From the IMG/VR virus record IMGVR_UViG_3300003877_000001, positions 186,001 through 250,000 of that record: DNA of 64,000 nucleotides. One strand, written 5' to 3'. Shown here piece after piece: positions 3,841 to 46,969 of this stretch. The translations under genes were made by a program, and so were the position numbers. This DNA comes from a virus. Positions within the stretch are counted from its first letter, which is position 1. Each line of letters begins with the position of its first letter. The notes under the pieces were generated by a model. The model searched no databases. It was not told where the DNA came from and worked only from the letters and a program-made list of their open reading frames with translations.

Positions 3841-4089
3841 ATGGAATTTTATAAAACAACTGAAAAACTTTCTGATATTGTACAACCAAGTCAAGTTGTA
3901 TATGTTCCTGAAAATGCAGAAGATAATGATGATGTATTCTCAAAGCAAGATTTTCTTGATTTATGTAAAGGTGATAAATATATTGCACAAATCGTTTTAG
4001 ACCTTTGTGAATGGCAATCGCCTTATACTGTTATTGATGAATTGATAAGAGAAGAAGAGTTTGAAGAAAATCAATTTAATTTATTTTAA
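3841..4089 (+). CDS. Small acidic protein, 82 aa
   Basis: Starts MEFYKTTEKLSDIVQ, 10 nt after the previous gene at a junction-motif ATG, so probably co-transcribed with it. The C-terminus is acidic and ends EENQFNLF. Not recognised. Confidence 0.7.
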   Translation: MEFYKTTEKLSDIVQPSQVVYVPENAEDNDDVFSKQDFLDLCKGDKYIAQIVLDLCEWQSPYTVIDELIREEEFEENQFNLF

Positions 4090-4099
4090 ATTAAAAATC

Positions 4100-4194
4100 A
4101 TGGATTTATTTGATAACCCCGAAGCATTATCTAACAATGTCCAAGATGTTCTTATGCATTTGAGGATGAACTTAATAATTTAGTACAAACTTAG
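4100..4194 (+). pseudogene. Small ORF with a 1-nt frameshift
   Basis: ATG at 4100 gives MDLFDNPEALSNNVQDVL and then stops at 4183 in a poor-looking tail. Adding one base near 4152 restores YAFEDELNNLVQT ending at 4194, which reads like natural coding sequence. Either a decayed gene or a single-base sequencing error. Confidence 0.45.
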
Positions 4195-4243
4195 AAGGCT
4201 TATTTGCTATATTTAGTGTTAGGCTTTCGTTAATTTTTGAAAT

Positions 4244-4465
4244 ATGGAAATAGATAAATCAAAACAAATTAAATCATTATTTGAAACTTATTTTGATGGT
4301 TGTTACGGAGTAGATGCACAACCAAACACTTCTAATACTTATGAAATGGGTATTTGTAAATTAGATTATGATGAAAAATCTAATATGTTAGATGTGCATT
4401 TACGTAGACCCGGATTGCTAATAGGTGAAGCAGGCTTTATAATAAATAAAGAATTGAATAAATAA
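4244..4465 (+). CDS. Small protein with a KH-like GxxG end, 73 aa
   Basis: The C-terminal third reads LRRPGLLIGEAGFIINKEL, which resembles the hydrophobic strand plus GxxG loop (GEAG) of RNA-binding KH domains such as ribosomal S3. A full KH domain would continue further, and here the ORF ends straight into a tandem repeat, so it may be truncated. The KH call rests on one motif and is tentative. Confidence 0.5.
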   Translation: MEIDKSKQIKSLFETYFDGCYGVDAQPNTSNTYEMGICKLDYDEKSNMLDVHLRRPGLLIGEAGFIINKELNK

Positions 4466-4521
4466 GAAAATGGATTTAATAAATAAGAAAATGGATTTAA
4501 TAAATAAGAAAATGGATTTAA
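4457..4521 (+). repeat. 21-bp tandem repeat carrying start codons
   Basis: Two full copies of a 21-bp unit (4470-4490, 4491-4511) flanked by partial copies. Each unit contains ATGGATTTAATAAATAAG, and 21 is a multiple of 3, so successive ATGs (4470, 4491, 4512) are in one frame. Confidence 0.85.
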
Positions 4522-4736
4522 ATACTATTATTGAAAAATACGAAAAATCAGACCCAAAGATGGATTTTCTGTTATGGTTCACTCAAAATTACAAATCTAT
4601 CAAAGAAACACAAACTAAGGCATTAAATATAGCCGATGTTAGCAAATCGTTTACTGCGGAAGAAGTAGGAAATATGTTAGCAACAAAGTTTAGTACGATA
4701 GAAGAAGCAATACACTATTTTGATACAATAGATTAG
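4470..4736 (+). CDS. Unknown helical protein with repeated starts
   Basis: Three in-frame ATGs come from the tandem repeat, giving products of 88, 81 or 74 aa; the core is MDLNTIIEKYEKSDPKMDF onward. The rest is helical with a phage/bacterial hypothetical look. It sits in a short segment (4.2-5.4 kb) whose intergenic sequences differ from the rest and resemble cassette junctions. Confidence 0.6.
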   Translation: MDLINKKMDLINKKMDLNTIIEKYEKSDPKMDFLLWFTQNYKSIKETQTKALNIADVSKSFTAEEVGNMLATKFSTIEEAIHYFDTID

Positions 4737-4795
4737 CAGTATATATTTGCTAACGTTGAGTGTAAACACAGTTTAATAACGATTAAATAAAACAG

Positions 4796-5047
4796 ATGAC
4801 AGATAAAGATATAAAAAAGCAATACATTAAAGAGTTTGGGTATAGTTCTTTTAATAAATACAATAATACGGACTATTCTAAATGGTTAGAATGCCAATTG
4901 ATTTCAGCACTAAATGAAGTTATTAAATTGGGTTTACATAGTGTTAGCCAACGAAGTGAACTGGTTTGCGAACACAATTATGTTTATAAAATATTGTATG
5001 ACCATACAGCAGCAGACGTTTGTACTAAATGTGGAAACATTAATTGA
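4796..5047 (+). CDS. Small protein with a C-terminal zinc-like motif, 83 aa
   Basis: The C-terminus has C-EHNY...DVCTKCGN: Cys/His then CxxC near the end, a possible zinc site. The N-terminus is basic and helical. The preceding spacer (TTTGCTAACGTTGAGTG) differs from usual phage junctions here. Function unknown. Confidence 0.6.
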   Translation: MTDKDIKKQYIKEFGYSSFNKYNNTDYSKWLECQLISALNEVIKLGLHSVSQRSELVCEHNYVYKILYDHTAADVCTKCGNIN

Positions 5048-5247: not shown

Positions 5248-5385
5248 ATGACAAATGTAGAAAAATTAACACAGTTAGGAATAATAGGCGATGTTAGACA
5301 ATGCTTGGGTGCAGATGATGAAAATGACACATCAGTAGATGATAGAATAAATACAATGAGTAATTCAGGCTTAGTTAAGGCTTGA
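5248..5385 (+). CDS. Small acidic protein, 45 aa
   Basis: Starts MTNVEKLTQLGIIGDVRQCLG after the spacer ATAACGGATAGCAATATG...ATTACG, a junction that also occurs at about 40200-40240. Likely a cassette gene of unknown role. Confidence 0.5.
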   Translation: MTNVEKLTQLGIIGDVRQCLGADDENDTSVDDRINTMSNSGLVKA

Positions 5386-5398
5386 TATAAAGAATTTA

Positions 5399-5428
5399 TG
5401 TAACCTTTAGGGTGTCCTAAACGTATAA
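5399..5428 (+). promoter_or_regulatory. Class B (ECF-type) promoter with palindrome
   Basis: TGTAAC (5399-5404), 17 nt, CGTATAA (5422-5428). The spacer is a variant of the TTTAGGATGTCCTAAA palindrome. Serves the 5482 gene. Confidence 0.75.
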
Positions 5429-5481
5429 CTAAAAGAATAATATTGAAACAAGTAAAAATAAATTTTTAAGGCATTAAAATT

Positions 5482-5967
5482 ATGGGATATACACATTATT
5501 GGACTTCGAAAGTAGTAAGCGAAGATAAGTTTAAAAAGTTTGCAGCTACTTGTAAGAAATTATATAAAGCATTACCAGATACTAGCGAAACTGCTAGTGG
5601 TTGTTATTCAGATGATGAAATAGTAATTTGTGGTGGTAATGGGAAAGGAAAACCATTGTTCAGAAATGATGAAGTTTGGTTTAACGGAGATGATAAAAGA
5701 GGTCTTGAAGCTTTTTGTATCGAACTAGAGGATAAAGATTATAATTCTTGTAAAACAGAAAGAAAACCCTATGACTTACTAGTTGTAGCCTGCTTAATTG
5801 CAGCACATGAAATTTTAGGGTATGAAATTACAAGTGATGGAGATTTTGAAGATTGGAAACTAGCAATAAATTATTATCTTCGTACATTATATACTAAGAT
5901 GCCAAACGATGAAGCAATTAAATTAATTTTACCAGAATTCATATATAAAGAATATTGTAACCTTTAG
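5482..5967 (+). CDS. Conserved phage protein beginning MGYTHYW, 161 aa
   Basis: The N-terminal MGYTHYW signature followed by a helical body and CYSDDEIVICGGNGKGKPLF matches a family of phage and bacterial hypothetical proteins that I know only by this start motif; no activity is assigned. It is driven by the class B promoter 53 nt upstream. Its last codons contain the -35 box of the next class B promoter. Confidence 0.75.
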   Translation: MGYTHYWTSKVVSEDKFKKFAATCKKLYKALPDTSETASGCYSDDEIVICGGNGKGKPLFRNDEVWFNGDDKRGLEAFCIELEDKDYNSCKTERKPYDLLVVACLIAAHEILGYEITSDGDFEDWKLAINYYLRTLYTKMPNDEAIKLILPEFIYKEYCNL

Positions 5968-5985
5968 GATGTCCTAAACGTATAA
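5956..5985 (+). promoter_or_regulatory. Class B promoter with palindrome
   Basis: TGTAAC (5956-5961), N17, CGTATAA (5979-5985); the spacer contains TTTAGGATGTCCTAAA. The -35 box overlaps the end of the upstream gene. Confidence 0.75.
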
Positions 5986-6014
5986 GTAAAAAACAAAGAC
6001 TAAAAGAAATTATT

Positions 6015-6308
6015 ATGGAACTAAAACATATTATTGATTATCGTTCTATTCACAATATTCTGATAGAGCCAATGAATCAAAAGGAATTAGCTGACAATGT
6101 ACGTAAAGATGGTAGTGTTCAAGCTAAAGTTCTAGTATCATTTGAAAGTATTCTAGCAAATAATATTGATGACTTAAATGATGACGTATCCGAAAAGATT
6201 ACTGGCTCTATCTCAGGATTAACAGATATCAGCTATTCAGTTGCAGGTAGAACAACTAATAACGAATTAATTCTGAAAGTAACAGGAGTACCTGAACTGG
6301 AAGACTAA
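6015..6308 (+). CDS. Unknown protein, 97 aa
   Basis: Starts MELKHIIDYRSIHNILIEP. The C-terminal half alternates strands (ISYSVAGRTTNNELILKV). It has its own class B promoter and a terminator about 110 nt downstream. Function unknown. Confidence 0.7.
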   Translation: MELKHIIDYRSIHNILIEPMNQKELADNVRKDGSVQAKVLVSFESILANNIDDLNDDVSEKITGSISGLTDISYSVAGRTTNNELILKVTGVPELED

Positions 6309-6442
6309 CAATGTCCAGCTTGACTAGCTGGTAAAATATTTAAGAATACTTTTCTAGGGGAAGGACTAATCAATGTCCATTCGTAGTACCCTAAGAATTG
6401 TTTTTGTTTAAAATCGGGGGAGAGGTGTCTCCCCCATATTTT
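6309..6442 (+). terminator. Non-coding tail and strong terminator
   Basis: GGGGGAGA-GGTG-TCTCCCCC (6416-6435) followed by a T run is a clear intrinsic terminator. Upstream, CCAGCT-TGACT-AGCTGG forms a small hairpin near 6315-6331. No ORF is seen in 6309-6415. Confidence 0.75.
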
Positions 6443-14250: not shown

Positions 14251-14270
14251 TGTTAGGTCAGGGTAATTTA

Positions 14271-14693
14271 GTTGTGATCACCTTACAAAATGTGATAATA
14301 ACCAACCTTGTGCTCACGGTGATGTTTTATTTGACTTGTTGTGATCACCTTACAAAATATGATAATAACCAACAGAGTAGGTTTTATTTTGATAAGCAAG
14401 TAAGTTGTGATCACCTTACAAAATATGATAATAACCAACATATTCCTATTGTTATTATTGTTGTGATCACCTTACAAAATGTAATAATAACCAACCTATC
14501 TTATATACCAACATCTCTTGCCGAGGTTGTGACCACCTTACAAAATATAATAATAACCAACTCCAAGAGCCAACATTCGCAACCACGTACTGTTGTGATC
14601 ACCTTACAAAATATGATAATAACCAACGAGGATGTAGAGTTGGATTATTACCGCTTAGTTGTGATCACCTTACAAAATATGATAATAACCAAC
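14271..14693 (+). CRISPR. CRISPR array, 7 repeats of 36 nt, 6 spacers
   Basis: Repeats start at 14271, 14338, 14404, 14460, 14526, 14592 and 14658, each exactly 36 nt. They begin GTTGTGATCACC, continue TTACAAAATATGATAATA and end ACCAAC. Four copies are identical. Copy 1 differs at position 22, copy 4 at 22 and 24, copy 5 at 8 and 24. Spacers are 31, 30, 20, 30, 30 and 30 nt and all differ. The repeat has GTTG/CAAC ends and a GTGATCAC palindrome. An ORF that runs through the array is an artefact of the repeats. No cas1/cas2 is seen. The array lies 226 bp from the 3' end of a Cas12/TnpB-like gene on the other strand. Confidence 0.95.
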
Positions 14694-14742
14694 ATTATTA
14701 GAGATAAATCACTAATTATGAACAATTTATATTGTGAAATAA

Positions 14743-14919: not shown

Positions 14920-16515
14920 TCAAGAGTTTATATATTTATTTTTAATATTAATTGCAGCATTAAAATCTGCATTATCTTCATGACCACATTTAGTACATTT
15001 AAAATTTGATTGATTAGTTCTATTATTAGAATCTATATTACCACAAACAGAACAAGTTTGTGAAGTATATGCAGGATCAATAAGAATTACTTCTTTACCA
15101 AGTTCTTTAGCTTTATATTCTAATTGGGTTTTAATTGTATTCCAACCAATATCTAGTATAACTCTATTAAAGTTCTGTTTAGATTTACTACCTTTAATAG
15201 TCATATTTTTTATATTAAGGTCTTCAAGAACAAAAGTATTATTATTTTTATTTTTGGTAAGTGTTGAAGTTATATTATGTTGTTTATTATTTCTAATATT
15301 AGAAATTTTAGTATTTATTATACCTAATTTATGTTTTATTCTTTTATATGAATTAGTTAAATAAAAATCTATATCTGTTTTATTTTTTTTATAATAGTCA
15401 TATTTTTTATTAAGTATAGTAGATAGTTTTCTTTTTTCTTCAGCATATTTTAATAGAACATCAAATCTATTTGCAAATATTGGATTATTAAAATCATTAA
15501 TATTTGAAGTTGTTATAGGTCTTTCAACACCTAAATCAATTCCAATGGTTGTTTTATCATTAGTGTGTTTAATTGAATAATTTTCAATATTGGTAATTAC
15601 CTGTATAGATATGAAGTATTGATCTTGCGAATTTTTAGATATAGTATAAGAATTTAATTTAAAAACATTAACATCATTCCACATATTAATAAACAATTTA
15701 TTATGACAAACCATTTTAATTTTTTTTAATTTAGGAATATTAATAGTAACGAATTTACTACCATTACTTATTATTTTAAATGGGGAAATATTACCATTAT
15801 AATTATATAGTATTTGACCAGTAAAAGAGTATGTTGAATTTCTATTTTTAAATTTAGGATAACCTGAATGTGTTTTCCATATTTTAGTAAAAGCATTATC
15901 TAAATTTTGTAATGTATATGATCTAGTAGTAGCATCAACATTTTTTAAGAATCCATATTTAAGGATACCATTTTCATTAAGTTCATTAGAGTTAGCCAAT
16001 ACAGTTAGTTCTTTAGATGCTTTATATTTATTAAAATATAAATCATTATCTTTCATATATTTTCTTCTAGCAACACCAATATCCTTAATTAAAGATTTAT
16101 AGTAGAGCATATGATCTATATCACCAGACTCATTAATATATTTAAAGAAAGAAACAATAAGAGTATCTTCAGTATCTAATTCTATTTTATATTTTTTTAA
16201 ATAGTTGTTAAACTCTTTAGAATCATTTAAATACTTATTTGTAAATTCATCTGAAATATCTTGTTGTTGTCTTAGAAAAGTATTATAGATAAAATTAGAG
16301 GTTCTAACAGCATCATCAAAGTATTGTATTTGTTTTTTATTAGGATAAATCCTAAACTTCAAAGCCTTATTTATTTTTTTTAGTTTAAATGATTTAATAT
16401 CATCTAATATAATATTATCATTTGTTAGAGAAGTTCCAATACCCTTTTTATTTACTTTGATAATATTGTGTATTGTGTTATTTTGTAAAGTAACAATATC
16501 ATTAGGTTGTAGCAT
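14920..16515 (-). CDS. Compact Cas12/TnpB-like RuvC nuclease, 531 aa
   Basis: An RNA-guided nuclease of the TnpB/Cas12 superfamily. Residues 51-85 (ALKFRIYPNKKQIQYF...NFIYNTFL) match the TnpB/OrfB N-terminal region. RuvC-I is IGIDLGVERPI with D327, RuvC-II is FVLEDLNI with E431, and RuvC-III is ADFNAAINI with D517. A Cys4 zinc ribbon (C488, C491, C507, C510) lies between II and III, so catalytic and zinc residues are intact. At 531 aa it is longer than usual TnpB (about 400) and in the range of compact Cas12f/V-U effectors. The first 46 residues are an extension I do not recognise. No IS200/IS605 transposase or element ends are seen, and a CRISPR array lies at its 3' side. This favours a phage-borne type V-like CRISPR effector over a transposon TnpB. 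The target type and guide RNA cannot be read from sequence. Confidence 0.88.
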   Translation of the reverse strand: MLQPNDIVTLQNNTIHNIIKVNKKGIGTSLTNDNIILDDIKSFKLKKINKALKFRIYPNKKQIQYFDDAVRTSNFIYNTFLRQQQDISDEFTNKYLNDSKEFNNYLKKYKIELDTEDTLIVSFFKYINESGDIDHMLYYKSLIKDIGVARRKYMKDNDLYFNKYKASKELTVLANSNELNENGILKYGFLKNVDATTRSYTLQNLDNAFTKIWKTHSGYPKFKNRNSTYSFTGQILYNYNGNISPFKIISNGSKFVTINIPKLKKIKMVCHNKLFINMWNDVNVFKLNSYTISKNSQDQYFISIQVITNIENYSIKHTNDKTTIGIDLGVERPITTSNINDFNNPIFANRFDVLLKYAEEKRKLSTILNKKYDYYKKNKTDIDFYLTNSYKRIKHKLGIINTKISNIRNNKQHNITSTLTKNKNNNTFVLEDLNIKNMTIKGSKSKQNFNRVILDIGWNTIKTQLEYKAKELGKEVILIDPAYTSQTCSVCGNIDSNNRTNQSNFKCTKCGHEDNADFNAAINIKNKYINS

Positions 16516-31347: not shown

Positions 31348-31983
31348 ATGAAAAAATGTATAACATGTAAGATTCCTAAAATTTTAAATGATTTTCATAA
31401 ATGGAAATTTGGTGCTGATGGTTATAAAAACCAATGTAAATCATGTGTTTTAATTAGACAAAATAAATATAGAGAAAAAAATCGAAATACATTAAATAAA
31501 AAACAAAAAAAATATTATGAATCTCATAAAGAAGAAAAAAAAGAATATGATTTAATTTATAGAAATGAAAATAAAGAAAAAATATCGGAATATCAAAAAA
31601 AATATGGTAAAAAAAATAGAAAGAAATTAAACACATATGCATATAATTATGGTAAAAAATATTCATACATTAAAGCATGGAGAGGTTTATTATATAGATC
31701 ATTAAAAAGAATGGGAAAAGAGAAAAATGGGAATACTATTAATATTTTAGGATATAGTTCTTTAGAATTTAAAAACCATATCGAATCTCAATTCACTGAA
31801 AAAATGACGTGGAATAATTATGGTGAATGGCATATTGATCATATTAAACCGTTAAGTTCTTTTAATAAGGAAACCCATCCATCTATTGTTAACGCATTAT
31901 CGAATATTCAACCATTATGGGCAACCACTAGGGAAATAAATAATATTATTTATGAAGGGAATATAAATAAAGGCACTAAATAA
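31348..31983 (+). CDS. HNH homing-type endonuclease, 211 aa
   Basis: N-terminal zinc finger (CITCKIP...CKSCV) followed by a long Lys/Tyr-rich linker and a C-terminal HNH-like core, EWHIDHIKPLSSF, with IQPLWA near the end. This matches freestanding phage HNH homing nucleases with an N-terminal Cys4 finger. It lies on the plus strand inside a leftward cluster, carries its own promoter and sits next to a broken gene tail. All this fits a mobile insertion. Confidence 0.8.
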   Translation: MKKCITCKIPKILNDFHKWKFGADGYKNQCKSCVLIRQNKYREKNRNTLNKKQKKYYESHKEEKKEYDLIYRNENKEKISEYQKKYGKKNRKKLNTYAYNYGKKYSYIKAWRGLLYRSLKRMGKEKNGNTINILGYSSLEFKNHIESQFTEKMTWNNYGEWHIDHIKPLSSFNKETHPSIVNALSNIQPLWATTREINNIIYEGNINKGTK

Positions 31984-32542
31984 ATTTACCATTTTTATAT
32001 TTTAATACTCCTTTACTTATTAAAGTTTTTATATAAAATTTATTTGCAGAATTACCATCTTCATTAATTAATTTTTCAATATACTCATTGTGAATTAATT
32101 TTGATTCATTAATTCTTCCAATTGTTAGGTGAAATCCCCAATATGGTTTTGATTCTAATCCTGCTGCTAATCTAATTTTTTCAGCATCATCTGACTTCAC
32201 ACCTACCCACCAATTTTTATTTTTTATTCTAGGATCAACACTATATTCTAAATTAATAATTCTATTATTATATTTCTCTTTTGCGTATTGATATTTTTTA
32301 TTATCTGATACTTTATCATTAATAACTGTAAAGTGTACACCTCTTAATGGTCTTTGTAGTTCAAGATTGTATCTCTTCTTAATAAACCATGAGTAATATG
32401 CACAAAAATCTGGATCGTTTATTAAGACGATAGCAGACTTCTTCCATTCAGATTGTCTTACGTGTTTCTTTGTTAAATCAACAGGGTCAAAGACTATCTT
32501 ACCAGTTTGTTTGAATATATAGTTGTGATAATCATCAGTCAT
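31976..32542 (-). CDS. 2H phosphoesterase-like protein, 188 aa
   Basis: Two H-x-T motifs, VHFTVI (near residue 70) and FHLTIG (near 138), are the signature of 2H phosphoesterases, which act on 2',3'-cyclic or 2'-phosphate RNA ends. Length fits the family. It ends overlapping the rightward HNH gene by 8 nt, so its original C-terminus may have been altered. With the ligase, Thg1-like and HAD proteins it could heal tRNA ends (inference). Confidence 0.7.
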   Translation of the reverse strand: MTDDYHNYIFKQTGKIVFDPVDLTKKHVRQSEWKKSAIVLINDPDFCAYYSWFIKKRYNLELQRPLRGVHFTVINDKVSDNKKYQYAKEKYNNRIINLEYSVDPRIKNKNWWVGVKSDDAEKIRLAAGLESKPYWGFHLTIGRINESKLIHNEYIEKLINEDGNSANKFYIKTLISKGVLKYKNGKFI

Positions 32543-36189: not shown

Positions 36190-36858
36190 TTATTTCTCTT
36201 TTAATAAATACTTATTTGAAATAATTTTGAAACTAAAAGAACCATCCATAGCACGATATACAACACCTTCTCTTAGTGTATCATACAGTTCTGATCTACC
36301 ATCAGCATCTTTTAATAAGAAGTCGAAATCATCAGACAATGATACGTTCACATCTAAAACAGGAACAGTTTCTAATTCTAATTCATTAATAATTTCAATG
36401 AATTCATTATAATTAAGTCTCTTATTTTTACCATCTTGTGCAGTAAAGAACCTAATAGTCTTTTCTTTAAGATTATAGATATTACCTTGAATAGATGTTC
36501 CAATTAATTCACCTTGAAGAACTAAATCCTTATCATGTTTAGCACACCATGCTCTCATTTTCTCTTCCAACTTCATATTTCTTGCTGTTGTAACAAATTT
36601 GTTTTCAGATTGAACAAGTTTATTTGTGGTTAATGTATCTGGAACTTCTATTAATAATTTCAATTCAAGATTGCGTGAAGACACACCATAATCCCAAGTA
36701 GAATCAACATTATCCTGTTTAACACAATGTAAGGTAATTGATGAATTATGAACCAAAATATTATTTGCAAAAAAACAATTAGTATCCTCTACTTCTATAT
36801 CATATAAAAGTGAATCATTTTCAATCTCTTCAATTTTACTTATTTTTAACCGTTTCAT
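36190..36858 (-). CDS. C-terminal half of RNA ligase with split-intein C part
   Basis: Residues 1-38 are an intein C-terminal segment: LYDIEVEDTNCFFANNILVHN matches intein blocks F and G, with the penultimate His37, terminal Asn38 and a +1 Ser39. The following 184 residues continue an RNA ligase nucleotidyltransferase fold: ligase motif III-like YGVSSRNLEL, motif IV LQGELIG and motif V-like REGVVYRAMDG with FSFKIISNKYL. The partner N half is encoded 89 nt upstream (36948-37727). Trans-splicing would join them into a ligase of about 344 aa. This is about the size I recall for the Deinococcus RNA ligase type (about 340 aa). Confidence 0.88.
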   Translation of the reverse strand: MKRLKISKIEEIENDSLLYDIEVEDTNCFFANNILVHNSSITLHCVKQDNVDSTWDYGVSSRNLELKLLIEVPDTLTTNKLVQSENKFVTTARNMKLEEKMRAWCAKHDKDLVLQGELIGTSIQGNIYNLKEKTIRFFTAQDGKNKRLNYNEFIEIINELELETVPVLDVNVSLSDDFDFLLKDADGRSELYDTLREGVVYRAMDGSFSFKIISNKYLLKEK

Positions 36859-36947
36859 TTAATTTTTCTTTAAATAATTTATATATTGATTTATTTTTAT
36901 TATATTTAATATGATATTGTGGTATAAACTCAAAAGTTGGAAAAAAA
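36859..36947 (-). other. Gap between the two ligase/intein ORFs
   Basis: 89 nt of AT-rich sequence with stop codons; no endonuclease domain and no clear promoter. The break lies where contiguous inteins would carry a homing endonuclease. Confidence 0.6.
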
Positions 36948-37727
36948 CTATTCTTTTAATATGAAATCTTTTGTTGTTAATTCATCAGTTCTTCTATAAC
37001 AATTTAATTCTGGAAGCCAAACCATATGATTTCCAGTTAATTTAATTATTGTTCCATCTGATAATGTAAGTTTAAACCATTTTTTCTTTCCTCTTTTTGT
37101 TATTGAATGATTCTTTATCTTTTTATAACAAATTTCGTTTTTTACAATGTTATATGATTTAACATTTAATTCTAATTTTTTTTCACAAATATCTTTAATA
37201 GTTACGTTACCAATATCAGTATTAATTATAGTCTCTTCATCTAAACAACCTTCAAGTTTTTCAGACCTATACACTAATTTTTCTTTCCATTCTGGTAATT
37301 TATCAACCAAATTTTGGATTCTTTCCTCGCCACTTTTAGTACAGAAAGTTGGAAATCTACTTTTAGCACTCATATCTTCAGGAACGGGCGGTTCATATTT
37401 ATACACACCAATAGCTTCTGTTAAATCAGTATCTAATAACAAATTTAAAGGTAACATAAGTCCCTGACTTACAGTCCCTCTCAACTTAATTGTACGGATT
37501 CTAAGGAATCCCCTATCAATATCTTTTTGATTCTTGAATAGGTGATTAGACCAATCTTTATGTGGTATCATTGAGTCTATTTCAAAATAAATTCCCCATT
37601 CCCCTTCTTGGAATTCATCCTTTTTAACGACACATTCCCATCCATCTACTGTCGCTTTTTCGATTTTATCAGCATTAGGAATTGGCGTTAATTTACTTAC
37701 TTTTCTTAATGTTACTAATTTTCTCAT
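36948..37727 (-). CDS. N-terminal half of RNA ligase with split-intein N part
   Basis: Residues 1-160 match the DRB0094-type RNA ligase: N-terminal OB-like domain (MRKLVTLRKVSKLTPIPNAD, then GEWGIYFEIDSMIP, RTIKLRGTVSQGLMLPL) and ligase motif I at EKLEG with the nucleotidyl-accepting Lys157. Cys161 starts an intein N segment of 99 aa: block A CLDEETIINT and block B TGNHMVWLP with His234. The ORF stops after DFILKE. The intein thus interrupts the active-site motif between KLEG and SS, so only the spliced product can be active. RNA ligases of this type seal nicked or broken RNA such as tRNA. Confidence 0.9.
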   Translation of the reverse strand: MRKLVTLRKVSKLTPIPNADKIEKATVDGWECVVKKDEFQEGEWGIYFEIDSMIPHKDWSNHLFKNQKDIDRGFLRIRTIKLRGTVSQGLMLPLNLLLDTDLTEAIGVYKYEPPVPEDMSAKSRFPTFCTKSGEERIQNLVDKLPEWKEKLVYRSEKLEGCLDEETIINTDIGNVTIKDICEKKLELNVKSYNIVKNEICYKKIKNHSITKRGKKKWFKLTLSDGTIIKLTGNHMVWLPELNCYRRTDELTTKDFILKE

Positions 37728-38183: not shown

Positions 38184-38283
38184 AAGCAATGGCATTGACA
38201 ACCTAACAATTGGACTTTCACCGTGTTTTTCGGGGTTATTGGTTTGTTGTCGATACTATTAACCCTTTTTCTCGCCACTGCCT
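38184..38283 (-). ncRNA. Pseudoknotted structured RNA, about 100 nt
   Basis: A 9-bp closing stem joins 38275-38283 with 38184-38192. It works on the minus strand because two positions are G-U there and would be A-C on the plus strand. Inside, GACAAC (38197-38202) pairs with GTTGTC (38246-38251) and GGGTTA (38233-38238) with TAACCC (38260-38265). These interleave, giving a pseudoknot. CCG/CGG (38221-38233) adds a small hairpin. A direct repeat TTTTTTTGTAAATATACT flanks the element (about 38150 and 38322). It resembles a riboswitch or ribozyme in compactness, but I cannot name a class. Confidence 0.55.
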
Positions 38284-38423
38284 ATATTATTGTTTATGAT
38301 ATTGTTTATGATATTTTTATGTTTTTTTGTAAATATACTCAAATTATATTGGTAATGCTACGTAAATTTTAAAACTCAATTCTTTTTCTAACTTTTCGAG
38401 AGTTGATATGTACAACCACTACA

Positions 38424-38789
38424 TTAGTACTTCTTACCGTGTTTATGATCTCTAAGTGAGTTAAATCTTATTTTGGCTTTTATATGTTCTTCCAAGTCAA
38501 TGCCTTTAAAGGCAGCTAAGTCCATTACTCTAATCACCACATCCGCTAATTCATCCTCAAAAGAATCTTTTACGGTTTCTATAAAATGGGCTTTAAACGC
38601 TTCATCATCTTTCCAATCATTTACCTTTTTCATTTCCACTAAAGAGTATATTTCTTTTCTGTCAGCCTCTAACGCCTCACTAACTTCACTATGTATTAAG
38701 CATAGCATTTCTCCTATGTTTTTTTCACTATCAAAAAAGCCTTTATTTCGGGCGTTTTGATGTACTTCTTTTGCTAATTTGTTAATCAT
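38424..38789 (-). CDS. MazG-like NTP pyrophosphohydrolase, 121 aa
   Basis: HSEVSEALEADRK (near residue 33) and FEDELADVVIRVMDLAA (near 77) match the E-x-x-E...E-x-x-D metal-binding helices of MazG-type nucleotide pyrophosphatases. Length fits a single-domain phage MazG. Such enzymes hydrolyse NTPs or (p)ppGpp-type signals; in phages they are thought to keep host metabolism active. The start follows a junction-motif ATG. Confidence 0.82.
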   Translation of the reverse strand: MINKLAKEVHQNARNKGFFDSEKNIGEMLCLIHSEVSEALEADRKEIYSLVEMKKVNDWKDDEAFKAHFIETVKDSFEDELADVVIRVMDLAAFKGIDLEEHIKAKIRFNSLRDHKHGKKY

Positions 38790-38801
38790 TATTTTAGTTT
38801 T

Positions 38802-38936
38802 TTAATTAATAATTATTCTTAGTACATTAAACTCAAACATTACGTGTCCATTCTCAGTAAACTTGTTTTCTCGTTTCTTATATTTATATTCAATGCAATC
38901 CCCTTTATATATCTCGTTTATAATCATATTTATCAT
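38802..38936 (-). CDS. Small basic protein, 44 aa
   Basis: MINMIINEIYKGDCIEYKYK, ending MFEFNVLRIIIN. Next to MazG in the mosaic segment. Function unknown. Confidence 0.5.
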   Translation of the reverse strand: MINMIINEIYKGDCIEYKYKKRENKFTENGHVMFEFNVLRIIIN

Positions 38937-39054
38937 TTAATAATCAGTACTAGTGGTAACACTACCCATTACTTATATGTATTTATTTAACTATGCTTAC
39001 ATTTATTATGATTATTTTATCAATGTTTTATATTTAAACCGTTATGCACAAGCA
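38937..39054. other. Cassette-like junction
   Basis: No ORF. On the minus strand GCATAACGGTTTAAATATAAAAC follows the upstream stop; related junctions occur near 39570-39595, 40200-40240, 41065-41095 and 4737-4795 / 5190-5247. Confidence 0.4.
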
Positions 39055-39230
39055 CTACTCATCACTTACTAACCAACGTAAGTTCTGTACCAAATGTAAA
39101 GCAATAGTCATATATTGTTTAATTTTCTCTTCCTTTGGGTTATCATCTTCAATAATAGCAAGAAGAGTATCACAACCACTACAACACCCGTAATAATTAT
39201 CCGTAATTACATAATCACTTACACTTGGTT
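39055..39230 (-). pseudogene. ORF without a start, Cys-rich fragment
   Basis: The frame DSYQPSVSDYVITDNYYG, then CCSGCDTLLAIIEDD and a helix ending WLVSDE is open to a stop at 39055. There is no start codon before an upstream stop. A 5'-truncated or frameshifted gene overlapping the 39215 gene end. Confidence 0.4.
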
Positions 39231-39475
39231 GGTAAGAGTCTTTTAGGTATTATATAAGTTGTTGTTCCTTGATCATCATCATCAATAACGGTCATTTTAC
39301 TTATGTCAAACTTTATAGTATATCCATCTTTATCTTTTAATTCTGTAATTACTAACTCAAATAACTTAACAACAATCGTTTGGTAATCACAATAATCTTC
39401 TTGCTTTGTGGTTGAGAAATACTCTTTTAACATATGCTTATTTTCATTCCATTGTTTTACAGCTTCTTTTATCAT
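39215..39475 (-). CDS. Unknown protein, 86 aa
   Basis: Start taken at 39475 (MIKEAVKQWNENKHMLKEYF); a longer reading from 39511 would begin inside a methylase fragment. Helix then beta (GYTIKFDISKMTVIDDDD). Function unknown. Confidence 0.6.
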   Translation of the reverse strand: MIKEAVKQWNENKHMLKEYFSTTKQEDYCDYQTIVVKLFELVITELKDKDGYTIKFDISKMTVIDDDDQGTTTYIIPKRLLPTKCK

Positions 39476-39495
39476 AATATCTATTTTAAATTTTC

Positions 39496-39565
39496 CTATT
39501 TCAAAGGGCAAGGATCAAAATTGAAATTAAATTCTTCGTTTATTTTATCATAAAAGTTTCGCAAC
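39496..39565 (-). pseudogene. Fragment of a Dam-type methylase
   Basis: LRNFYDKINEEFNFNFDPCP then LK-stop corresponds to the N-terminal region of phage N6-adenine methyltransferases (--FYDKLN-EF-F-LDPC). This is the very segment missing from the Dam-like gene at 39807-40194. It starts directly after a cassette-like junction. Confidence 0.55.
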
Positions 39566-39594
39566 GTTTCATATACAAATCTGTTATAGTGCAA

Positions 39595-39768
39595 TTAAAA
39601 TTCAAGCACCAATCTTCTGCCCCATAAAGTTATTTCAATCACTTTGCTAAACCGTTTAAAAAATGGTGAGCCTTTATACTTAAAGATTCTAAAATACATA
39701 GGGTCATCGTCATCTCTACCCCAACTAACTACTAAAATTTTAAACTCTTTTGTTTTTAAATAATACAT
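39595..39768 (-). CDS. Small protein, 57 aa
   Basis: MYYLKTKEFKILVVSWGRDD then a basic aromatic C-terminus (KVIEITLWGRRLVLEF). Flanked by cassette-like junctions. Function unknown. Confidence 0.55.
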   Translation of the reverse strand: MYYLKTKEFKILVVSWGRDDDDPMYFRIFKYKGSPFFKRFSKVIEITLWGRRLVLEF

Positions 39769-39806
39769 ATCATTTGAATTTTAAAAGCACATAACATGGT
39801 ATATAA

Positions 39807-40194
39807 TTAATTTACTATCTTTCTCCCATCAAACACCACCAACATACTATCGTGCATACCTGCCTTGCCCTCTACATATTCGCCCTTTGTATTAACACCG
39901 CAAAACTTTATTCTCTTTTCTATAAAGCGGATCTCATTAGCGTTCGGCAATATATGTTTGTGGAATAATTGAGTGCTTGTACTTACAGGCAACAGCATCA
40001 CGCATAATTTACCTTTCTTGCTTTCTTCTATTGCCTTAATTACAAACGCTTCTTTAAGTTTTCTGCTGTAAGGTGGATTGATAAAGTTTCGCTCTTTCCA
40101 TTCTTCAATTTCAAGTCCGTCCCATTCTTCAATATTATGCTTATAATGGAGGTGTAGCCCAGTCATCTTTATGTGGTATGTTTCTATTTTTCAT
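39807..40194 (-). pseudogene. Broken phage N6-adenine methyltransferase (Dam-like)
   Basis: The ATG at 40194 reads MKNRNIPHKDDWATPPL and stops. The body follows in another frame: HNIEEWDGLEIEEWKERNFI, NPPYS (the catalytic DPPY-type motif, here NPPY), then the conserved LLPVSTSTQLFHKHILP and GKAGMHDSMLVVF. The expected segment with FYDKIN...DPCPL between the two parts is deleted; a copy lies at 39496-39565. The remaining ORF could start at 40166, but it lacks the SAM-binding N-terminal motif and is probably inactive. Confidence 0.7.
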
Positions 40195-46115: not shown

Positions 46116-46145
46116 AAGAAAGCCACTTTTCAGTGGCTTTCTTTT
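46116..46145 (-). terminator. Strong terminator after the Thg1-like gene
   Basis: AAGAAAGCCACT (46116-46127), loop TTTC, AGTGGCTTTCTT (46132-46143); a perfect 12-bp stem usable on both strands. Confidence 0.8.
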
Positions 46146-46969
46146 TAAAATAAATCTATATTTTTTCTTAAATCTAGATATATTTTAAGATGATCCTTTT
46201 TTTTATTAAAGTCAGCAGCATTACGGATTTTCCACCCATCGACTTTCATAAGATATCTTCCTTGTTTCATAAAGACTCTTTCATCACCCTTTTCTATTAG
46301 TGATTTACCCACATCATTATTAAGACGTTTATCAATTGGTTCTTTAACAACCATTCGACCTCTTTTCTTTCCAGCATCTAAATCATTCCAATTAATACCT
46401 TTCTTCCAAGACATTTCCTGCATTTCATTAGCAGACTTCTTATATAATTCTTTATGTGAATAAAGAGATTGTGCAACCATTGAAATTGAATTTCTTACAG
46501 CATCTTGTTGTCTCGCAATGAAATAATTAATTACTTCAGTTCGTTCTGGTATTGTAAATACTCTTGAATCAAAAAATGCTAGATTATCATTTTTTAGATT
46601 AGGTTTTTTTGCAACAATTCTATTAAAATATCCAGTTGCTATTGATGCTGATATTGAACTCATTTTTTGAATATTACCATCAAACCATGCATCAGTAGAT
46701 AATTTATCATAATCTTGTAAAACTAAACTAATTTCATCTGATTGAACATATGCCATAACCGCACCTTGAATATTTTTACATAGTTCAAGTGCTGTTTCGT
46801 CCATAACTTCCATTAAATTACTATCAAACGGTTTTTCAAAGTTTTTAGTATAAGTATGAAAACTTTTCCCATCACAACGTATGATAGTATTAGTTCTTCT
46901 TGGAAGATAGTATCTTGTTCTATCTTCATAATTAACTTTCATTCTATTATTTATACTATCTTTTTTCAT
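46145..46969 (-). CDS. Thg1-like 3'-5' nucleotidyltransferase, 274 aa
   Basis: RTNTIIRCDGKSFHTYTKNF (residues 25-44, metal-binding Asp33) and YVQSDEISLVL (74-84, with Ser77-Asp78-Glu79) match the catalytic core of tRNA-His guanylyltransferase and Thg1-like proteins. The length fits. Thg1 adds G-1 to tRNA-His; Thg1-like proteins in bacteria and phages repair 5'-truncated tRNAs by 3'-5' templated addition. In this phage, with an RNA ligase, a HAD and a 2H phosphoesterase, a tRNA-repair role is likely (inference). It lies 105 nt after a class B promoter with palindrome and ends in a strong terminator. Confidence 0.88.
   Translation of the reverse strand: MKKDSINNRMKVNYEDRTRYYLPRRTNTIIRCDGKSFHTYTKNFEKPFDSNLMEVMDETALELCKNIQGAVMAYVQSDEISLVLQDYDKLSTDAWFDGNIQKMSSISASIATGYFNRIVAKKPNLKNDNLAFFDSRVFTIPERTEVINYFIARQQDAVRNSISMVAQSLYSHKELYKKSANEMQEMSWKKGINWNDLDAGKKRGRMVVKEPIDKRLNNDVGKSLIEKGDERVFMKQGRYLMKVDGWKIRNAADFNKKKDHLKIYLDLRKNIDLF

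Follow-up and report, generated by a model that had tools for sequence, protein, structure and literature searches.

Split inteins whose two halves flank a homing endonuclease gene were reportedly first described by Dassa et al. in 2009, in what is said to be the founding paper on 'fractured genes'. The PolB gene of the jumbo phage MIJ3 is interrupted by a split intein that has an endonuclease between its halves (PMC6892783). The split intein gp41-1 consists of an N-terminal half (IntN) of 88 amino acids (aa) and a C-terminal half (IntC) of 37 aa, with Ser at the +1 position (PMC11766414). We analyzed a window of 64,000 nucleotides (nt), the whole stretch of DNA under study, which covers positions 186001-250000 of a 325,854-base virus record. 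Two neighboring open reading frames (ORFs) in this window very probably encode a naturally split class-1 intein in a phage RNA ligase of the DRB0094/Rnl5 type, and trans-splicing would restore the ligase. The intein shares the canonical split site, Cys1, a +1 Ser and the sizes of the halves (about 88-110 aa for IntN and about 37-50 aa for IntC) with gp41-1, NrdJ-1, IMPDH-1 and gp41-8 (PMC11766414), but those inteins reside in helicase, reductase and IMPDH genes and this one in an RNA ligase. It also resembles the fractured-gene inteins of MIJ3 PolB and S16 UvsW (locus L110) in intein type and in the division of a phage host gene into two ORFs. Unlike them, it has only an 89-nt spacer with no endonuclease, and the host is a ligase rather than a helicase, polymerase or reductase.

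Both ORFs lie on the minus strand. ORF1 (36948-37727, 259 aa) runs from an ATG start to a TAG stop and ORF2 (36190-36858, 222 aa) from an ATG start to a TAA stop. Residues 1-160 of ORF1 are the RNA ligase N-extein (37248-37727), which comprises a PHA02142-type OB fold, a linker and the SEKLEG sequence of motif I. The OB fold matches PF21189 in Pfam (E=3.5e-32), and the N-extein matches the RNA ligase family phrog_968 (E=6.6e-38). The catalytic Lys157 of KLEG is encoded at 37257-37259, and the ligase is interrupted directly after this motif, three residues past the lysine. Here Cys161 (codon 37245-37247) serves as Cys1 of the 99-aa IntN (36951-37247), which carries block B (TGNH) at IntN residues 71-74 and ends in DFILKE before the TAG stop codon (36948-36950). 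The spacer between the ORFs (36859-36947) has 89 nt and 12% GC. ORF2 begins with the 38-aa IntC (36745-36858), in which block F (YDIEVED) and block G (NNILVHN) are followed by Ser39, the +1 nucleophile; His37 is penultimate and Asn38 terminal. The 184-aa C-extein (36190-36744) extends from Ser39 to the TAA stop and is the remaining nucleotidyltransferase (RNA_ligase) domain (PF09414, E=5.2e-15). When the exteins are joined in silico, SEKLEG runs directly into SSITLH and the product has 344 aa. A sequence-only reading of this DNA had described a 99-aa IntN from Cys161 and a 38-aa IntC ending in His-Asn before Ser39, and coordinates, strand and lengths proved exact.

The break cannot be mended by a single change. 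The IntN frame has its TAG stop and a TGA six codons further, while the IntC frame differs from it and has an in-frame TAA immediately 5' of the ATG; because of these stops in both frames and the differing frames, no single frameshift or sequencing error joins the two ORFs. The break coincides with the canonical split point, the endonuclease position, as in gp41-1. The alternative that assembly or sequencing errors, or a recently acquired frameshift or stop, disguise a single continuous cis-splicing intein gene has in its favor that the locus is known from one metagenomic virus record without reads. It would, however, require several errors to produce a separate stop and ATG, the AT-rich spacer and the TAA before the ATG, and both termini fall at the point where gp41-1 and the nearest relatives, themselves split inteins, are naturally divided. 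We regard this explanation as the least credible of those weighed here.

Family scores rise when the halves are joined. The spliced ligase matches TIGR02306 (DRB0094/Rnl5 RNA ligase) end to end with 159 bits, above the equivalog cut-off of 151.15 bits, while the unspliced ligase halves reach 118.7 and 31.5 bits, both below it. The joined 137-aa intein scores 53.9 bits against PF14890 (cut-off 35.8 bits), and the separate halves only 30.1 and 25.6 bits. Against the NCBIfam domain models for the individual ends both halves pass, IntN with 35.5 bits for TIGR01445 (cut-off 24.5) and IntC with 22.2 bits for TIGR01443 (cut-off 15.6). The best match of the intein among solved structures is gp41-1 (E=1.1e-8), with about 34% identity over the aligned part; gp41-1 IntN also ends in KE, and its IntC starts with Met and contains KILKIEE. 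Cys1 and the Thr and Asn-His of block B are conserved in an alignment of 12 IntN sequences, and Asp20, Asn32, His37 and Asn38 are invariant among 10 IntC sequences.

The spliced protein aligns over its full length with the Naegleria gruberi RNA ligase (5COT, E=2.8e-51), and the alignment is free of gaps across the junction, with KLEGSSITLH opposite KLDGSSMTVY. It thus shares the OB fold and the nucleotidyltransferase motifs end to end with Naegleria gruberi Rnl and the Deinococcus DRB0094-type ligases (TIGR02306), but the window version comes from two genes via an intein. The search for uninterrupted homologs, which the sequence-only reading had proposed, gave eight viral ligases that keep K-x-[DE]-G-[ST]-S and show no gap at the junction, and the best 80 viral ligases are all uninterrupted, full-length matches to the spliced ligase. 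In AlphaFold2 models, ORF1 resembles Naegleria Rnl as well as the IntN of Npu DnaE (4lx3/4qfq), the latter with a TMt of 0.75 and an rmsd of ~2 Å, and ORF2 resembles Naegleria Rnl with E ~4e-12. Confidence is low for the IntC region and for the ligase segment before the motif. IntC alone is predicted to be disordered, as would be expected for a split partner modeled in isolation, and so is the catalytic part of the N-half. Family models, residue conservation, fold match, native junction and split site thus all bear out the claim that the ligase is interrupted at KLEG, and the predicted complete ligase of about 344 aa is matched by the joined product.

In class-1 inteins, Cys1 forms a thioester, the +1 residue attacks it and the terminal Asn cyclizes. 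At this locus the two ORFs would be translated separately, and IntN and IntC would come together in the canonical Hint fold. Cys1 would begin the reaction with an N-S acyl shift to the thioester; Ser39 would then attack, Asn38 would cyclize, and the exteins would be joined into the native ligase of 344 aa, in which the KLEGSS motif is intact. We strongly infer from the sequence that the ligase is restored in this way. The product would be a DRB0094/Rnl5-type RNA ligase, predicted to seal nicks. Ligase activity should need splicing because neither half holds a complete active site, and activity before splicing is unlikely because the cut leaves Lys157 and the OB fold on one half and the remaining catalytic domain on the other. 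The same arrangement bears on genes-in-pieces, in which a functional ligase would arise by non-covalent assembly of the two halves, with the intein parts as no more than a docking device or a relic. Tight mutual binding of intein halves would suit such an assembly, but all splicing residues are intact here and conserved in relatives, a working pocket is improbable with motif I cut and 137 aa of intein still attached, and the catalytic part of the N-half is the one predicted disordered. We therefore rate non-covalent assembly as very improbable beside trans-splicing.

No endonuclease ORF is present in the 89-nt spacer between the halves, as the sequence-only reading had noted, and the spacer has no Rfam match that would indicate an RNA intron or structured RNA. 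The absence is an unusual trait within this intein group. Most relatives have a gap of ~850-1240 nt that encodes a Vsr/DUF559-like endonuclease, often with a zinc finger; the end of this endonuclease overlaps the start of IntC. This 'fractured gene' layout is found at loci L118, L128, L131, L145, L216, L220-L224 and L229 of the viral collection, and in shortened form at L213, where a 375-nt gap holds a nuclease core of only 131 aa. Because the relatives mostly carry an endonuclease, the window copy is most likely a derived, endonuclease-free member that has lost the gene. A stretch of the gap (frame 'FFPTFEFIPQYHIKYNKNKSIYKLFKEKLNE') considered as a fossil endonuclease tail was rejected, since the match to the tail profile of the relatives was equaled by 225 of 1000 dinucleotide shuffles. 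A relocated endonuclease elsewhere in the genome was rejected as well; weak partial matches to two free-standing ORFs of 576-590 aa were all that emerged.

With no endonuclease the element would no longer be maintained by homing, which is what might be expected of a decaying, non-splicing element in a phage whose ligase gene is dead. Both halves, however, are fully open, neither intein nor ligase has lost its catalytic residues, and the score of the restored protein exceeds the equivalog cut-off, so that decay appears a most unlikely account, comparable in this respect to non-covalent assembly.

Two relatives with an endonuclease between the split-ligase halves (L215 3772-4989 and L219 3875-4993) come from phages that read TGA as Trp. 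All Trp codons of these endonucleases are TGA (8/8 and 7/7), whereas both ligase halves use TGG only, so translation of the endonuclease would depend on recoding and that of the ligase would not. Decay of the two endonucleases was considered and rejected, since their in-frame stops are all TGA at Trp positions and the genes look intact. A second endonuclease-free case, outside the core group of relatives, is a split intein at L227 3297-5090 (and L228), inserted directly after the Lys in EK^TDG (^ marks the insertion point). The host is a nucleotidyltransferase-like protein with no Pfam match, and the gap is 66 nt.

The relatives were collected by scanning the viral collection with patterns for the N-junction and the C-junction and with an IntN-only alignment. 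The IntN-only query, which was built from ligase-hosted inteins and so favors near relatives, retrieved 14 distinct split inteins from viruses, of which 13 reside in recognizable polynucleotide ligases; the near-exclusive hosting by ligases applies to this intein group and not to all split inteins. A single scan of bacterial and archaeal genomes found no instance of the same N-junction. The hosts are ligases of the T4 Rnl1 type, the DRB0094 type, other RNA ligases and one NAD+ DNA ligase, and in nearly all of them the cut falls within or next to nucleotidyltransferase motif I. The sites are KLDG^S, KVDG^S, KIDG^C, KIHG^T, YDGEN^C, VDGQS^C or, upstream, TDEER^CQN. The closest relative, L213, lies in a T4 Rnl1-type ligase at KVDG^S (49.7% identity, E=1e-38), followed by L223 (DRB0094 type, TDEER^CQN, 47%), L118 (KLDG^S, 46%) and L220 (DRB0094 type, KIDG^C, 45%). 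Further members are L215/L219 (KIHG^T), L222 and L229 (T4 Rnl1 type, KLDG^S), L224 (YDGEN^C), L221 (VDGQS^C), L216, L131 and L128 (TDE.R^CQN) and L145 (NAD+ DNA ligase, KLDG^C). L118 is assigned to the ligases by its KLDG motif, a weak PF09414 match (E=0.05) and unnamed jumbo-phage homologs; the assignments of the other core relatives are over or near the Pfam cut-offs. L139 (KIHG^S, RNA_ligase E=3e-9) is outside the core group.

In the intein tree, a 15-member ligase core forms one side of a branch with weak support (83/42), and the split inteins of S16 UvsW, DnaE, NrdA and Lak PolB fall outside it. Ligase-hosted and other inteins are separated by 2 label changes, compared with 8.4 when the labels are shuffled, and none of 500 shuffles was as low. 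These relationships are consistent with a split-intein lineage specialized for the KxDG adenylation motif of ligases, which would have moved by Vsr-like homing across non-orthologous ligase families (T4 Rnl1-type, DRB0094/Rnl5, other RNA ligases and NAD+ LigA), with the window copy settled and its endonuclease lost. We infer homing between ligase families from this pattern and give the whole scenario an even chance.

Motif I has also received other inteins. Two DRB0094-type ligases (L113 and L114) carry contiguous inteins with a LAGLIDADG_2 endonuclease at the identical position, and a ligase-like protein (L177) carries a contiguous intein at KLDG^SN. These share the insertion point in motif I (KLDG^SS or KLDG^SN) with the window intein, but each forms one contiguous ORF where the window has two. 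Because they are only ~23-28% identical to the window intein, we regard them as separate invasions, which makes motif I a repeated intein target. The DNA flanking the insertion varies between the ligase families except in the KxDG codons, so a homing target, if shared, would be short or degenerate. The sequence-only reading had called an RNA ligase host unusual. The literature searched, which did not include Dassa et al. 2009, holds no report of an intein or split intein in an RNA ligase, and to that extent the claim stands; it gives way in that the nearest relatives are nearly all in viral ligases and that the contiguous LAGLIDADG inteins of L113 and L114, and that of L177, occupy the motif too.

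Several points weigh against the interpretation as a whole. Splicing is a prediction from sequence. Support is weak at the deep nodes of the tree (83/42 for the ligase core), which leaves a single ligase-specific origin unproven. The case for endonuclease loss comes from the relatives, and the fossil test was matched by 225/1000 shuffles.

The phage might in addition use trans-splicing to delay tRNA or RNA repair deliberately or to switch it conditionally, a reading that would supplement the split-intein explanation and not oppose it. A 2H phosphoesterase (31976-32542, minus strand) and Thg1, the tRNA-His guanylyltransferase (46145-46969, minus strand), are encoded near the ligase, and the three together suggest an RNA/tRNA-repair set. 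This set and the inability of either half to act alone speak for such a switch, but no regulatory signal was found, a selfish origin accounts equally well for the position, and the relatives in unrelated ligases resemble mobile elements. We consider a regulatory role unlikely, though less so than the rivals discussed above.

The nearest deposited relatives of the phage by capsid and DNA are distant and include Flavobacterium and Cellulophaga phages; a Bacteroidota host is a guess. A ~36-nt repeat (GTTGTGATCACCTTACAAAATATGATAATAACCAAC) occurs seven times in the window at 14264-14695, with a spacing of 66 nt (once 56). The array adjoins a gene (14920-16515, minus strand) for a 531-aa Cas12u4/Cas12f/TnpB-like protein (PADLOC E=1e-39, PF07282 E=1e-25), and together they form a phage-borne miniature type V CRISPR-like locus.

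The virus record (G000:C1) has five further inteins, all contiguous, in PhoH-like, UvrD-like helicase and ribonucleotide reductase genes and, twice, in one SNF2-like helicase; the genes lie at 38272-40113, 72247-74694, 128806-132480 and 302295-306401. Inteins in PhoH and ribonucleotide reductase are known from a Campylobacter phage (PMC3322345). In the SNF2-like helicase ORF (302295-306401) one contiguous intein is open throughout, and inside it another frame encodes a 336-aa zinc-finger and DUF559 endonuclease (E=1.5e-14; 303365-304372, minus strand, which is 5366-6373 of locus L109). The intein of TerL at L121 contains a similar out-of-frame HNH ORF (4026-4949) with a weak E-value. Out-of-frame endonucleases are known from a phage methylase insert that lacks splicing domains (PMC11855218), and no description of one within an intein was found in the literature searched. 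A reductase gene at L138 (74-6108) combines a contiguous intein with a further split intein, and its short IntC ORF (3989-4282) seems to run straight into the N half of another intein.

A naturally split intein is a known kind of element; what appears to be new is the class of host gene, the apparent ligase specialization and the missing endonuclease. With their native ligase exteins and a Ser, Thr or Cys at the +1 position, these ~15 split inteins are candidate orthogonal trans-splicing tools. The break at the catalytic lysine motif would make the activity of the enzyme dependent on protein trans-splicing. The relatives offer a test of whether one selfish element can colonize several enzyme families via a shared catalytic motif, and the endonuclease-free copy may represent an end point of the fractured-gene life cycle.
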